The notes: generated by a model not told the origin, from the letters alone. A DNA stretch of 64,000 nt from Rubritalea marina DSM 17716 (GCF_000378105.1 NZ_KB899250.1:1-64000), one strand, 5' to 3'. Numbered from the stretch's first letter, positions 2,186 through 8,507 are shown. Numbers and translations are program-made.

Positions 2186-3637
2186 TTAACCCAATGGCTG
2201 ATAGTTCGTCGGTTCTTCGGTGATGGTGATATCGTGAGCGTGGGATTCGCGAAGGCCTCCAGCCGTGATTTGAGTGAATTCTGCACGCTCGCGAAGCAAG
2301 GCAAGATCTTGGGCACCTACGTAGCCCAAACCGGAACGCAGTCCGCCCATGAGCTGGAACACCACATCAGCTACTGGGCCTTTGTAAGGCACGCGGCCTT
2401 CCACACCCTCAGCAACCATTTTACCAGAAGCATTCTGGCTGTAGCGATCTTTAGAGCCTTTGCGCATGGCGCCGAGTGAGCCCATGCCTCGGTAGGTCTT
2501 GAAGCGACGCCCTTGGAAATGCACCGTTTGACCAGGTGACTCACGAGTACCCGCTAGTAGGGATCCCAGCATCACTAGGTCCGCCCCTGCTGCCATCGCT
2601 TTCACAATGTCGCCTGAATAACGAATACCGCCATCAGCAATCACAGCCACGCCGCGCTCGCGCGCCACGGAAGCCACATTTTGAATCGCCGTAAACTGAG
2701 GCATCCCCACACCTGCCACCACGCGAGTGGTACAGATAGAACCAGGACCAACACCCACTTTTACCGCTGAAACCCCTGCATCGCAGAGATCCTTGGCTCC
2801 TTGAGCCGTCACCACATTACCAGCAACAACAGGAACTCCCAGTGTCTTAAGATTTTTGATCACCTCAATCACCACTTGTGTGTGGCCAGTAGCCGCATCG
2901 ATGAAGAGCGCATCCGCACCAGCCGCCACCAGCGCCTCAGCGCGTTGCATGTGATCCGGCCCAGGGCCGACAGCCGCACCACAGCGCAGCTGACCATTGG
3001 CATCCTTCGCCGAGTGAGTGAAAGTCATGCGCTTCTCAATGTCCGCACCAGTAATCAGACCCGCTAGCGAGCCGAAACCGTCAATCAGTGGAAGCTTTTC
3101 AATACGGTTCTCATAGAGGATGCGGCGCGCTTCTTCGATACAAGTGTCCGCAGGGGCAACCACGAGACGGTCGATCGGAGTCATCACATCAGCCACCGCG
3201 CGGTTCTTATTCTCCACATAGCCGATGTCACGGCCAGTGACCATACCTTCTAACTTGTTGTCTTCATCCACTACTGGGAAGCCAGAAAAACCTTCTTGAG
3301 CAATGATATCGCGCACTTCCGCAAGAGTCATGTTCTTGCTAACAGTAACAGGGTCATGAATCACGGCATTTTCTGAGCGCTTCACTTTAGCCACCATGGC
3401 TGCCTGCTCTTCGATCGTATTATTTCGGTGAATCACACCAATGCCACCTTCACGGGCGAGCGCAATCGCGAGCTCAGCTTCCGATACAGAATCCATTGCC
3501 GCAGATACGACAGGAATGTTCAAACCAATGTCTGGGGTGAGCCAAGAGGAAATGTCCGTCTCATTCGGAATCACCGCACTGTGCTGCGGTACGAGAAGAA
3601 CGTCATCAAATGAAAGTCCAAGAGAAATCTCTGCCAT
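2186..3637 (-). CDS. guaB: IMP dehydrogenase
   Basis: NAD-dependent oxidation of IMP to XMP, the committed step of GMP synthesis. The 483-residue protein is a TIM barrel split by two CBS domains (about residues 92-145 and 150-205). The catalytic loop GSICTTR places the nucleophile at Cys302, and the flap region near GRVPYKG is present. Start: ATG at 3637 ([15 protein letters not shown]); a GTG three codons upstream at 3646 is possible. It is the first gene of the guaB-guaA pair and is divergent from the envelope operon beginning at 3856. Confidence 0.97.
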
Positions 3638-3783
3638 GCACGACACAAGAGGTTTTCACCCCATATTGCAAGCGCAAACCCTCGCTGAAGCGTTTTTGTC
3701 AGTCTAGTGCTCACTCACAGACTGCTCGCCTAGCATGAATACGTATTAAGTCATTAATCTCATTTAGCTAAGACCTATAAAAC

Positions 3784-3855: not shown

Positions 3856-4686
3856 ATGACCGCACTACTGATCATGCTACCGACCACAGCCGTCATGCTG
3901 TTGATAGAAAAACTATGGCCAGCCAATGACTTGCCGAAAGTCAACAACTGGTGGGCCAGAGTCGCCTTAACCAACCTTTGCCAACTACTCATCGTTCTTT
4001 GTATTGGCTATGCAATCGAGCCACATCTGAGCAGCATCACGCCTCCATGGGCCTTGAGCCTCCATGTGAATCTAGCCTGGCAACTTGGAATTGGCTACCT
4101 GCTCACCACATTCCTCTATTACTTCTGGCACAGGCTTCGGCATGAGTCGCGCTTCTTTTGGAAACTCTGCCACCAGCTGCATCATTCCCCCGAGCGCATG
4201 GAGGTGTTGATGTCATTCTACAAGCATCCCGTAGAGATCACTCTCAACGCATTGATCAGCTCCACCATTAGCTACTTGATACTCGGTTGCAGCATTGAAG
4301 CTGCTGGCTTGATCACGCTGGCCACCGGCATTGCTGAGCTCTTTTACCACTGGAATATCAAAACCCCCGTGTGGCTCGGCCCATTATTTCAGCGCCCTGA
4401 GTCGCATCGCGTGCATCACCAACGCTACCGCCACACCAACAACTACTCCGACATCCCCCTGTGGGACATGTTGTTTGGAACCTACAAGAACCCACGAAAG
4501 CGTGTCGAGCATTGTGGGTTCCAAGATCAAAAAGAAGACCGCATCGACGACATCCTCGCCTTCCGCGATGTGCTCTCAAAAAACTCCGACAAGGTCTCCC
4601 CCCTACACCTGCTTCCCAGCTGTATCGGCTGCTCCAAGCGTTGGGCCTGCCACGCCTCTCAAACAAAGCAAAACACCAAACCATGA
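3856..4686 (+). CDS. Sterol desaturase / fatty acid hydroxylase superfamily membrane protein
   Basis: A 276-residue integral membrane di-iron protein. The His boxes typical of the superfamily are visible: HRLRH (92-96), HQLHH (106-110), H124, H165, and SHRVHHQRYRH (184-193), followed by NNYSDIPLWDMLFGTY. Hydrophobic spans lie at about 5-20, 38-53, 73-90 and 132-160. Family members hydroxylate or desaturate lipid acyl chains, sterols or carotenoids with O2; the substrate here is unknown. It is the first gene of a four-gene operon; its TGA overlaps the next ATG (ATGA at 4683-4686). The operon partners suggest an envelope lipid modification rather than sterol synthesis, which is inference. Confidence 0.9.
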   Translation: MTALLIMLPTTAVMLLIEKLWPANDLPKVNNWWARVALTNLCQLLIVLCIGYAIEPHLSSITPPWALSLHVNLAWQLGIGYLLTTFLYYFWHRLRHESRFFWKLCHQLHHSPERMEVLMSFYKHPVEITLNALISSTISYLILGCSIEAAGLITLATGIAELFYHWNIKTPVWLGPLFQRPESHRVHHQRYRHTNNYSDIPLWDMLFGTYKNPRKRVEHCGFQDQKEDRIDDILAFRDVLSKNSDKVSPLHLLPSCIGCSKRWACHASQTKQNTKP

Positions 4687-5174
4687 AAACATCCAAATTC
4701 GTCAAAGGCTCCTGCGCCCTCCTCTTGCTGCTCGGCTGCTCGACTATGCTAGGAGAGGCGCTCTCCAACAAAGCGCTTAAAGGGTTCGGGCTCGCCTCGC
4801 AGATCGCCCCCTACACCAAAGTCTTTGGCATCGCACACAGCTATGAACAGCAACAAGCCTTCGAGACATTCGCCTGCAGTTTCACGCTAGAATACACCCT
4901 CCCCAATGGCGAACGCAGCGCGCTTGAGCTGAGCCCTGAAGTCTACTCCAAACTCCGTGGCCCTTACAACCGGCGCAATGTCTATGGTGCTCTACTCGCC
5001 TATGGCCCCGCCCTCTCGCCAGAACTCAGAGCTCGTGGCCTCCAACAAGCATTGCTCTCATCGCATGCCATCATCGATGAGCTTGGCATCCCAGAGGGCA
5101 GCACAGACTTCCAACTCACTATCCGCTCCAAAAACCCCAAGCTCAATCACTCTAACTACCTACTCACTCCATGA
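4683..5174 (+). CDS. Predicted lipoprotein, second gene of the envelope operon
   Basis: 163 residues, no family recognised. The N-terminus is a lipoprotein signal: basic MKTSKFVKG, a hydrophobic core and LLLLLGC, giving a lipobox Cys near residue 18. The remainder is a soluble, probably periplasmic domain with a YTLPNGERSALELSPEVYSKLRGPYNRRNVYGALLAYGP segment in the middle, here noted only as positions about 60-100. The start is fixed by the ATGA overlap with the hydroxylase stop; its own stop overlaps the HTTM-DCC start, again as ATGA. This strongly suggests translational coupling and a shared job with both neighbours. Confidence 0.75.
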   Translation: MKTSKFVKGSCALLLLLGCSTMLGEALSNKALKGFGLASQIAPYTKVFGIAHSYEQQQAFETFACSFTLEYTLPNGERSALELSPEVYSKLRGPYNRRNVYGALLAYGPALSPELRARGLQQALLSSHAIIDELGIPEGSTDFQLTIRSKNPKLNHSNYLLTP

Positions 5175-6376
5175 ACCACAACAGCACAGCCTTCAGCCTA
5201 TTCCGCATTCTCTTTGGGACGTACTTACTCATTCATTTCGCTCAACTGCTCCCCTATGCCGAAGAGCTTTTCAGTTACTCGGTCATTTTTTCTGACACTA
5301 GCCCCAGTCCCTTTCAAGGGATGTGGCCCAACCCGCTCTTCAGCGCCACCCCACATCTAGCAAGCGCGATGGTCAGTCTCGGCTGCCTAGCCTCCATCTG
5401 TATCATCGTGGGCAGGCTGAGAAAAACTGCAGCCTTCTACCTGTGGTACCTCTCCACCTGCCTTTTCACAGCAAACCCACTCATCTCAAATCCATCACAA
5501 GCCTACACTGGGTTGCTATTGATCTTCCTGACACTCATCCCCCATGGTGAAACATGGGTCCTCAATCGACCAGAGTCAGCGGATTGGCACTTTCCCTCCA
5601 CCATCAAAAAGACCGCCTGGTTGCTTCTCGCTATCGGTTACTCGTTCTCCGGCATCTTGAAACTCTCAAGCCCCAGCTGGTGTGATGGCTCCGCACTCGC
5701 TTTTGTGCTCGAGAACCCACTGGCGCGACCAAATGGATTGCGTGAGCTCATGCTGAGTTTCCCACCCGTGTTCTTGATGCTCCTGACTTGGTTCACACTG
5801 GCACTCGAGATCCTCTTCCTCCCGCTGGCATTGATCAAGCAAGCTCGGCCCTGGCTTTGGCTCGCCACCGTTGCGATGCACATAGGCATCATGTGCGTGA
5901 TCGACTTCGCCGACCTCAGCTGCGGCATGCTCCTGTTTCATCTATTCACCTTCCAGCGGGATTGGCTGCCAGCTCGCCGTGGGACACACATCCTCTTTGT
6001 CGATGGTGCATGCAGCTTCTGCCACAGCTCTATCAAGGTACTCACAAGATTAGACCCAGAGCGGGCACTCTCCTTTAGCACACTGCAAGGTCTCACCGCA
6101 CAGCAATACCAAATCCAAGACGCTGGCCAGGCCGCAGACGCCGCAGTGCTCCTGGAACATGCTGGAGCAGCCGATGCGCGAACGTGGCGCGGTGCCGATG
6201 CGATCCTTCGCTCCCTCTATCTCGCTGGTGGCTACGGCTCGTTGATCTGGGCACTGCATTACTTACCCCAATTTCTCAAAAACAAACTCTACCAAGTCAT
6301 CGCAAACCATAGGTACTCCATGAGCACCCTGTGCCCCATTCCAACTCAAGAACAACGTCAACAACTCCTTCCTTAA
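5171..6376 (+). CDS. HTTM (vitamin K carboxylase-like) membrane domain fused to a DCC thiol-disulfide oxidoreductase domain
   Basis: 401 residues. Residues 1-265 are a multi-pass HTTM-type domain, related to vitamin K-dependent gamma-carboxylase, with the hallmark MHIGIMCVIDFADLSCGMLLFH near 236-257. Residues about 273-395 form a DCC (DUF393) domain with VDGACSFCHSS (Cys281 and Cys284) and the family ending GSLIWALHYLP...LYQVIANHRYS. HTTM proteins are thought to act on membrane substrates; DCC proteins are thioredoxin-like redox proteins. Fusion suggests a redox-driven membrane modification, possibly quinone-linked (inference). It is coupled to the lipoprotein by ATGA and followed after 2 bases by the amidase-like gene. 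Confidence 0.85.
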   Translation: MNHNSTAFSLFRILFGTYLLIHFAQLLPYAEELFSYSVIFSDTSPSPFQGMWPNPLFSATPHLASAMVSLGCLASICIIVGRLRKTAAFYLWYLSTCLFTANPLISNPSQAYTGLLLIFLTLIPHGETWVLNRPESADWHFPSTIKKTAWLLLAIGYSFSGILKLSSPSWCDGSALAFVLENPLARPNGLRELMLSFPPVFLMLLTWFTLALEILFLPLALIKQARPWLWLATVAMHIGIMCVIDFADLSCGMLLFHLFTFQRDWLPARRGTHILFVDGACSFCHSSIKVLTRLDPERALSFSTLQGLTAQQYQIQDAGQAADAAVLLEHAGAADARTWRGADAILRSLYLAGGYGSLIWALHYLPQFLKNKLYQVIANHRYSMSTLCPIPTQEQRQQLLP

Positions 6377-6378
6377 CC

Positions 6379-7164
6379 ATGAATAAGAAACAACTCAAAC
6401 TATGCACCTTCCTGCTCGCACTCATTTTTTTCAGCTCAGGAAATATCGGCAAAGGCAAAGCTCACACAGGGATCTTTCCATTCTCATTGATGGAAAAGGC
6501 TCCGAGTGAACGAAGAACAAGTAGACGGGCGAACACAGCAACGACCCAACTAGAGCCGGTTGCTCACCACAATCACCATCAACACGATGCACCCGATATG
6601 ACTGAACTCCAAGCGGGTGATGTCATCGCCTTCTACATGCCGCACAAAGAAGCGCGTCACTATCTCAAGCGGGGCAAGATTCAGAAACTGCCCTACGAGC
6701 TCTTCAGCTTCGGCCACCTTGCCGTGGTGGTCGAACACCCTGCCTCAGGAGAACTAAAGCTCTTGCAGGTCGCGATGAAGCAACGCTGCAACATCGATGA
6801 GGACCTCAGCTACCTCGATGGGAAATCCTGGAACGTGTACCGAGCTCCATCAGGGGCGATTGACTCAGCACGTTTGACTGAATTTGTGGAACACCTCTGC
6901 CACTCCTCCCACCCAGCACCCAAGTATGATTACACAGCAACGTCTGGCATAAGCAATGGCATGATATACCCGAACACCCTCGATGAAATCAAATCGAGCT
7001 ACACCTGCACCACCCTCGCCGTGGCAGCGCTACACTATGCGGGATTCAGTCTCTACCCGATGCAGCGCTCAGGCTTCATGGATGTGCTCACCCCCAAGCA
7101 AGTCATCAGCGCTTGGGGAGCCCCGCGCCACAAAGCTTCAGCCACTCTCACGATGGCGCAATGA
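6379..7164 (+). CDS. Permuted papain-like (YiiX/NlpC-P60 type) amidase, secreted
   Basis: 261 residues from the ATG at 6379, two bases after the previous stop. An N-terminal signal or anchor (about 7-22) is followed by a His-rich linker (AHHNHHQHD, 62-70). The core then begins LQAGDVIAFY, with a catalytic-type His113 in FGHLAVVVE and, about 100 residues later, Cys210 in SYTCTTLAVAAL. This His-before-Cys order matches the circularly permuted papain-like families (YiiX/YaeF, LRAT-like). Such enzymes cleave amides of lipids, peptides or proteins. As last gene of the operon it may hydrolyse or transfer the group handled by the hydroxylase and HTTM-DCC protein. The family call is from motif order, not a search. 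Confidence 0.7.
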   Translation: MNKKQLKLCTFLLALIFFSSGNIGKGKAHTGIFPFSLMEKAPSERRTSRRANTATTQLEPVAHHNHHQHDAPDMTELQAGDVIAFYMPHKEARHYLKRGKIQKLPYELFSFGHLAVVVEHPASGELKLLQVAMKQRCNIDEDLSYLDGKSWNVYRAPSGAIDSARLTEFVEHLCHSSHPAPKYDYTATSGISNGMIYPNTLDEIKSSYTCTTLAVAALHYAGFSLYPMQRSGFMDVLTPKQVISAWGAPRHKASATLTMAQ

Positions 7165-7190: not shown

Positions 7191-8507
7191 TCACTCACAT
7201 CCACACGGGGCTTGTAGCTGATCATTCACTACCGCCAAACGCGGAGCGTCTAATGCATGGCTTGCTTGCACCCACGCTTCAAAGCTCTCAAAGTCCGGTG
7301 GGTGCTGGCTGTAGGCAGCTTCATACCATTGCTGAAGCTGTCCACCACACGCCTGAACCAGGGTGAAATCCAAATCAAATTCCTGGCTGCGAAGCTCCCT
7401 GTCCAGCCGCCCGGCTTTATCCAATTGCACCTTGTGCCAAAAGCGCTTCAGGTGCATAAGGCCAAGGGAGCCTCGGTCCTCGCGGCTAGTGAGCTGTGGG
7501 TCGGGCTGGTAGTGTGGTGTGTCATAGATGAAGTCCGGCGATTCTGAGAAGTCGTAGTGAAAGGGAATCTGACGTCGTTCGCCAAAGTAAAGAGCATCCA
7601 CATAGATCGGCATGTTCAAGCTGCACTCATTGCGCCTCAGCCAATGCTCGCCATAGACCTTGAGATCGGTCTCCACGCACAAGCGCGTCGGTAGTCCTTC
7701 CCCATCCGGCACTTCGAGCACCCCCTGGTAGGCATCCATCCGCTCCTCGCGCGCCGCCTGAGCAGTCTCGCGCGATAAGGTGAAGACGTGCCCCAAAAGC
7801 ACCCTCTCATTGCCATCATTAGATTCCAAGGATGCGTGGATCTGAATCTCCTGCGGGATGAGCACGCCCTCGGGCTTCAAAAATTGCTCAAGGTGGGCGA
7901 AGATCTTCACCTGTGGTTCGCGGCGCAGCATCGCCGTCATCGTTTCAGAAATCAGAATATCAAAGGCATCAATCGCGCTCGGCTGCCACAGCGTGGCGTC
8001 TGCTTCATCCACCGAGACCACGCGCTCTTCAATGCCGTAGAGCGACACCAAGTGCTGGATCGAGGACACATTGCGCGCGTGGATGTCGATCAAGCAAATA
8101 TCTAGTGGCGCTTCGCGGAAGTAGCGCGCCACCAACGGCAATAGCAACAAGCCATAGGGCCCAGTTCCCGCATACAAAATGCGCACGCGCTCGTTCGCTG
8201 CCAGAGCATCCTCGATCGCCTGTTTCACCCCTTGCATGAACACCTGAGTGCGCAAGGGTTCCTTCAGACACTTCGCCGCCTGCACCGGCGAAATGGCCAC
8301 GCCATGTTGCGTCTCAGCATCGTCGCGCGTCAGCATCTCCTCCTCCACCGACACCCCAGTCAGCTCAGCCAAGCCATCTGCCATCGCCTGCACCAACGGT
8401 GTGGCCAACGCAAAATCACGCGGCATCGAAATCAATTGCTCCATCAGCTCTAGCAAGGATTGCACCTTCGCTTCAGCTGCCTCAGAAGAATGGGTCAGGG
8501 TCATCAT
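7191..8507 (-). CDS. Class I SAM-dependent methyltransferase, PRMT-like
   Basis: 438 residues. The SAM-binding glycine motif ILYAGTGPYG lies near residue 115, followed by an acidic strand end (LDICLIDIH) and an ISETMTAML segment resembling the acidic double-E loop of protein arginine methyltransferases. The preceding HGVAISPVQAAKCLKEPLRT is also PRMT-like. The C-terminal half shows no domain I recognise. Substrate unknown; class I methyltransferase is secure, PRMT-like is tentative. It converges with the amidase operon (26 bases between the stops). Two adjacent ATGs (8507, 8504) could both serve as start. Confidence 0.75.
   Translation of the reverse strand: MMTLTHSSEAAEAKVQSLLELMEQLISMPRDFALATPLVQAMADGLAELTGVSVEEEMLTRDDAETQHGVAISPVQAAKCLKEPLRTQVFMQGVKQAIEDALAANERVRILYAGTGPYGLLLLPLVARYFREAPLDICLIDIHARNVSSIQHLVSLYGIEERVVSVDEADATLWQPSAIDAFDILISETMTAMLRREPQVKIFAHLEQFLKPEGVLIPQEIQIHASLESNDGNERVLLGHVFTLSRETAQAAREERMDAYQGVLEVPDGEGLPTRLCVETDLKVYGEHWLRRNECSLNMPIYVDALYFGERRQIPFHYDFSESPDFIYDTPHYQPDPQLTSREDRGSLGLMHLKRFWHKVQLDKAGRLDRELRSQEFDLDFTLVQACGGQLQQWYEAAYSQHPPDFESFEAWVQASHALDAPRLAVVNDQLQAPCGCE

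Follow-up and report, generated by a model that had tools for sequence, protein, structure and literature searches.

What might a di-iron membrane hydroxylase, a small membrane protein, a relative of vitamin K carboxylase and a secreted amidase do together? The question is raised by four tightly packed genes in the 64,000-nucleotide stretch of Rubritalea marina DSM 17716 that we analysed (NZ_KB899250.1:1-64000, hereafter the window). They encode a hydroxylase of the FA_hydroxylase superfamily (FAH, gene 1), a member of a family without a name (P0002, gene 2), an HTTM domain fused to a DCC1-like thiol domain (gene 3), and a permuted NlpC/P60-type amidase (AMID or P0004, gene 4). An earlier reading, made from the sequence alone, had described them as an overlapping operon, and the DNA bears this out: all four genes run in the same direction, overlapping by ATGA at two junctions and separated by 2 bases at the third (Table 1). 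Here, we show that FAH, P0002 and HTTM are the core of one conserved functional unit, to which DCC and the amidase are accessories, and propose what this core may do.

The same genes recur in the genus and family of R. marina at 34-68% identity. A search for the P0002 family found it in 18 of 145 genomes of the family and in 7 of 387 genomes of the phylum; in the neighbourhoods fetched from this search P0002 adjoins the HTTM gene and, in all but one, the hydroxylase gene too. A first scan of the genome collection with a single window protein as query gave no matches, while scanning named genomes with the HTTM-DCC alignment yielded 64 loci in Verrucomicrobiota, Planctomycetota, Myxococcota/Deltaproteobacteria, Acidobacteriota (Holophagae), Obscuribacterales, Rhabdochlamydiaceae, and Elusimicrobia. 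P0002 is present in 61 of the 64 loci, and P0002 and the hydroxylase together in 59. Two loci have P0002 with no hydroxylase nearby (L104 and L113), and three have neither (L121, L125, and L127), and of the HTTM gene itself L125 and L127 include no more than the end. By contrast, among 47 control loci, retrieved using either a carboxylase-like protein or the general HTTM model as query, both partners were found in only four (L132, L133, L136, and L145), all of them the module's own HTTM genes in genomes known to carry the module. Since the partners are absent from the other control HTTMs, the linkage is specific to this HTTM subfamily. The core is therefore linked in Verrucomicrobiota, where the sequence-only reading had suggested looking, and beyond, in at least seven groups, and this spread excludes a chance association of close relatives.

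Four-base overlaps were found at 35 of the 45 unfused FAH/P0002 junctions and at 38 of the 61 P0002/HTTM junctions. Moreover, the distances within FAH, P0002 and HTTM are correlated with each other (r 0.71-0.79, compared with a permutation maximum of 0.14), which shows shared descent as a unit; physical contact is not implied by these correlations alone.

Fusions tie the genes together further. FAH and P0002 are a single protein in seven loci (L099, L109, L117, L119, L120, L122, and L123), HTTM and DCC in 49 of the 64, and HTTM, DCC and the amidase in eight. In L110 and L007/L026 HTTM is fused directly to the amidase, a separate DCC gene following in L007/L026. DCC is absent from about a quarter of the loci, and for this reason we restrict the core to FAH, P0002 and HTTM. 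The amidase was encountered only among verrucomicrobial relatives. In a set of 58 relatives, it is encoded in seven of eight genomes carrying the module and in one of 50 others (Fisher p 2e-7); in one genome (G024) it lies on a different contig from the module, and the sole module genome lacking it is only 58% complete. Hence the joint role once assigned to all four genes is supported by linkage and fusions, but not as an equal partnership, as DCC and the amidase come and go.

At the level of sequence profiles, gene 1 is a clear FA_hydroxylase (PF04116; 2e-28, 99.9 bits against a gathering score of 31), with histidine motifs that are intact in the module hydroxylases, each histidine conserved at 95% or more. 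Its nearest NCBIfam model is the ornithine-lipid hydroxylase OlsE (7.7e-19), although at 68.1 bits the match falls far below the cut-off of 475; the module hydroxylase also differs from OlsE and Scs7p in its linkage or fusion to P0002. The C-terminal part of gene 3 matches the DCC1-like thiol-disulfide oxidoreductases (PF04134; 1e-14, 56.1 bits, cut-off 27.8), from which it differs in being attached to HTTM in one chain; the motif D[AG]xCxxC is found in 45 of 46 sequences, the remaining one having DSDCxxC. The HTTM part scored slightly below the Pfam cut-off (PF05090; 1.4e-5, 25.2 bits against 27.7), and genes 2 and 4 had no Pfam match. In gene 4, H113 and C210 are invariant across six homologues, in the permuted His-before-Cys order also seen in BcPPNE, YiiX, LRAT and LnsA; unlike these, it has HTTM(-DCC) as a gene neighbour or fusion partner.

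Two AlphaFold models, both of naturally fused homologues chosen to cover every domain, were compared with known structures. In an HTTM-DCC-amidase protein (L077; predicted local distance difference test (pLDDT) 83.9), the HTTM domain could be superposed on human GGCX for about 270 residues (Foldseek E 1.4e-6, VIA Z 17.7), no transmembrane chain other than GGCX scoring above Z 7.4, and the amidase domain matched BcPPNE (3kw0; Z 10.9, 151 residues, 3.8 Å). A Foldseek search of the PDB with an FAH-P0002 protein (L099; pLDDT 91.9, predicted template modelling score (pTM) 0.65) gave no significant match. Pairwise, its FAH part resembled the hydroxylase domain of Scs7p (4zr0; VIA Z 6.9), and its P0002 part weakly matched residues 338-491 of GGCX (Z 2.5, 7.1 Å). 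The HTTM identity of gene 3 is upheld by the fold match to GGCX: the vitamin K carboxylase-like domain, weak by Pfam alone, is confirmed by the predicted structure. The hydroxylase, the HTTM-DCC fusion and the permuted amidase had likewise been named correctly, as judged from Pfam, the fold matches and the conserved His/Cys order.

Two residues matter here for GGCX: K218, by which vitamin K hydroquinone is deprotonated, and His160, to which glutamate is coordinated (PMC12589487). The profile of the module HTTMs aligns with bacterial carboxylase-like proteins (hhalign E 1.3e-13), and the Lys of its FSGxxKLxSPSW motif falls on the carboxylase lysine corresponding to K218; it is invariant (58/58), as is a Trp near the position of GGCX W223. 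The His of the bacterial carboxylase LNHYY motif, which we take to be equivalent to N159-H160 of human GGCX, is replaced in module HTTMs by an invariant Asn. This suggests that the quinol side of the active site has been kept and the glutamate side altered. Gamma-carboxylation is thus unlikely, because it is the residue aligned with the glutamate-coordinating His160 that has become Asn.

The loop charges fit a membrane domain of eight helices with both termini inside, as is also predicted for the N-terminus in carboxylase-like proteins: even loops are positive, and odd loops are poor in Lys and Arg except for the long cap loop. From this we infer that DCC is cytoplasmic and the P0002 ectodomain outside, which makes the envelope redox role earlier suggested for DCC unlikely. 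In DCC-amidase fusions a hydrophobic stretch is inserted between the two domains, so that the amidase would be kept outside. In several of these proteins (L069-L073, L075, and L080), the stretch ends in a lipobox-like SSC or VSC, resembling an internal lipoprotein signal, and a lipidated amidase could be released from the fusion. Several relatives of gene 4 have a lipobox-like cysteine as well, unlike those of gene 2.

P0002 is a newly defined protein family of about 160 residues, for which neither Pfam nor NCBIfam has a model. Its members conserve a single membrane helix at the N-terminus together with the sequences P-x-x-K-V-F and GPYNRRNxYGA. No relatives were found in PHROGs, among PDB sequences or in Pfam/NCBIfam scans of 49 members, and a plasmid search gave no matches. 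The SdpA model TIGR04034 did not match any of the 49 members at E<5, a single SdpA sequence found no support by hhalign, and profile comparison did not support similarity to the luminal domain of bacterial carboxylases. Gene 2 had been read as a lipoprotein and the possible substrate of the other enzymes. Indeed, its Cys19 is correctly placed for a lipobox, but relatives carry other residues at this site and have no conserved cysteine, so that the residue is peculiar to this genome and the assignment is not supported: the family is better described as a membrane-anchored subunit, sometimes fused to the hydroxylase.

How these parts may work together is suggested by the fold, the conserved residues and the linkage. 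We propose that FAH, P0002 and HTTM form a membrane complex that would depend on O2 and menaquinol for oxidising a lipid of the membrane, possibly an aminolipid; we estimate the probability of this reading at about 0.4. HTTM would be its GGCX-like quinol-binding subunit, retaining the quinol-deprotonating lysine. P0002 would be a separate ectodomain partner of HTTM, in place of the ninth transmembrane helix and the propeptide-binding domain of GGCX; it may stand to HTTM as SdpA to SdpB and may also dock the di-iron hydroxylase. When quinol is oxidised in HTTM, electrons could be delivered to the di-iron site, or else the same substrate could undergo carbanion/oxygen chemistry. DCC might supply thiol redox power from the cytoplasm, e.g. 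by resetting the quinone, while the periplasmic permuted NlpC/P60 enzyme might act on the product at an acyl or amide bond, by cleavage or by transfer. The earlier idea of a redox-driven envelope modification would thus be kept as far as the joint role is concerned and would lose its lipoprotein substrate.

A lipid substrate is plausible. An aminolipid (N-acyl amino acid lipid) seems a reasonable first candidate, because OlsE is the nearest model for the hydroxylase, the genome has an OlsB-domain protein, and cleavage of fatty acid-amino acid amides has been proposed for permuted NlpC/P60 enzymes (PMC3142127), to which LnsA, a factor in lipoprotein N-acylation, also belongs (PMC7387801). A more specific version, in which a split GGCX-like quinol enzyme (HTTM and P0002) couples menaquinol oxidation to the di-iron hydroxylase, so that the module would be a new kind of quinol-driven lipid oxygenase complex with DCC and the permuted NlpC/P60 enzyme as add-ons, is doubtful. 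Several points weigh against the lipid oxidation proposal. Homology of P0002 to SdpA or to the GGCX luminal domain lacks profile support, and the structural hint is weak; quinol chemistry would not be proved by a retained base lysine alone; that electrons pass from HTTM to the di-iron site is purely our supposition; and the aminolipid idea would depend on the distant resemblance of two enzymes. In addition, the predicted structures are those of fused homologues rather than of the window proteins, and while fold, residues, linkage and fusions are shown, quinol use, the complex, its electron flow and its substrate are what we infer.

Other explanations have to be weighed against the same evidence. 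One is maturation of an exported peptide or lipoprotein, as in the SdpAB or GGCX systems: HTTM and P0002 would act on the target, FAH would hydroxylate it, and the permuted NlpC/P60 enzyme would process it. GGCX substrates are indeed proteins; the SdpA/SdpB pair, which matures SDP in Bacillus subtilis, likewise combines an HTTM protein with a small separate protein with one transmembrane helix, and the SdpB-type HTTM of a myxococcal genome also has such a partner (SdpA), similar in size. However, the match of the module HTTM to SdpB (TIGR04033; 6.1e-7) stays far under the cut-off (29.3 vs 178.4 bits), the SDP system has no hydroxylase, and the residue at the His160 position is Asn. Moreover, no toxin precursor, conserved small open reading frame or substrate gene was found beside the module, where the only close neighbour to recur is a LysR-type regulator, divergent and present in seven loci, and on balance we consider this explanation unlikely. 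The lack of a co-encoded substrate would agree with menaquinone itself being modified, HTTM holding the quinol head and FAH oxidising the head or the isoprenoid tail. The conserved lysine in a quinol-pocket fold and the MenA encoded in the genome are consistent with this, but all this support is indirect, and the permuted NlpC/P60 accessory is left unexplained; we regard it as quite improbable.

The GGCX fold and base lysine could also be taken to mean that the module makes gamma-carboxyglutamate residues as GGCX does, the other genes being in support. Given the invariant Asn, a membrane domain followed by DCC, amidase or nothing instead of the fused luminal propeptide-binding domain, and a constant pairing with a di-iron hydroxylase unlike that of any carboxylase, this is hardly credible. 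Finally, the genes could encode independent envelope enzymes that are merely co-regulated and share no reaction. The dispensability of DCC and the amidase in many loci would agree with this, as would the hydroxylase gene lying on the opposite strand in seven loci (Opitutaceae and relatives), but such an arrangement would hardly account for several fusion combinations, conservation across phyla, and correlated distances, and we consider it very unlikely.

All the catalytic domains can be placed in known superfamilies, while the combination is built around an undescribed GGCX-like subfamily. The sequence-only reading named no described pathway with this set of genes, and we found no description of the combination in open-licence papers, most subscription journals being outside this scope. 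To our knowledge, relatives of vitamin K carboxylase occur widely in bacteria, yet hardly any has been assigned a reaction, and little is known of the electron donors that bacterial FA_hydroxylases use. As the module ties a GGCX-like protein to an FA_hydroxylase by linkage and fusions across phyla, both questions become testable in one system, and the module points to a lipid, quinone or protein modification not yet known in diverse bacteria.

In the window, both genes flanking the operon are on the other strand, so that the four-gene unit stands alone (Table 1). Promoter and terminator scans gave nothing beyond chance level.

Table 1. Features of the R. marina operon and its flanks (window coordinates; aa, amino acids)
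Feature	Position	Strand	Details
Gene 1, FA_hydroxylase-superfamily di-iron membrane enzyme, 276 aa	3856-4686	+	Pfam PF04116; homologue fold match to Scs7p 4zr0
Gene 1 His motifs	within 3856-4686	+	HRLRH (aa 92), HQLHH (aa 106), HRVHH (aa 184)
ATGA start/stop overlap, genes 1/2	4683-4686	+	read from DNA
Gene 2, P0002, 163 aa	4683-5174	+	one N-terminal membrane helix, then alpha/beta ectodomain; KVF and GPYNRRNVYGA motifs
ATGA overlap, genes 2/3	5171-5174	+	read from DNA
Gene 3, HTTM and DCC1-like fusion	5171-6376	+	stop TAA at 6374-6376
Gene 3, HTTM part (GGCX-like membrane domain)	about 5171-5980	+	base lysine K164 in KLSSPSW
Gene 3, DCC1-like thiol domain	about 5993-6325	+	C281-x2-C284
Gene 4, secreted permuted NlpC/P60-type enzyme, 261 aa	6379-7164	+	His113 precedes Cys210; ATG 2 bases after gene 3 TAA
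Flanking guaB/IMPDH	2186-3646	opposite to operon	
Flanking methyltransferase-like gene	7191-8507	opposite to operon	

The hydroxylase has a C-terminal CxGCxKRxxC tail (C-x2-C-x5-C, residues 256-265, window 4621-4650) in 28 loci, nearly all of them named Verrucomicrobiota, and lacks it in 31 others, L092 among them. A thiol relay from DCC to this tail was considered and dropped, since the two do not track each other: the tail is found in 23 of 45 loci with DCC and in 5 of 14 without. The LysR-type regulator is divergent and lies 39-153 bases upstream of the module (L066, L068, L074, L106, L111, L118, and L126), in verrucomicrobial as well as proteobacterial, planctomycete or myxococcal loci. 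All 18 listed genomes (2.2-3.3 Mb) of one genus of the family (g3) are without P0002; if this is an anaerobic gut genus, the absence would fit an O2-dependent module. In Verrucomicrobia OFTM198 (L104/L051), about 590 bases separate P0002 from HTTM-DCC, and the surroundings yielded no hydroxylase gene. A second P0002-HTTM pair with neither hydroxylase nor DCC (L113, Obscuribacterales) is encoded in the same genome as a complete module (L084).

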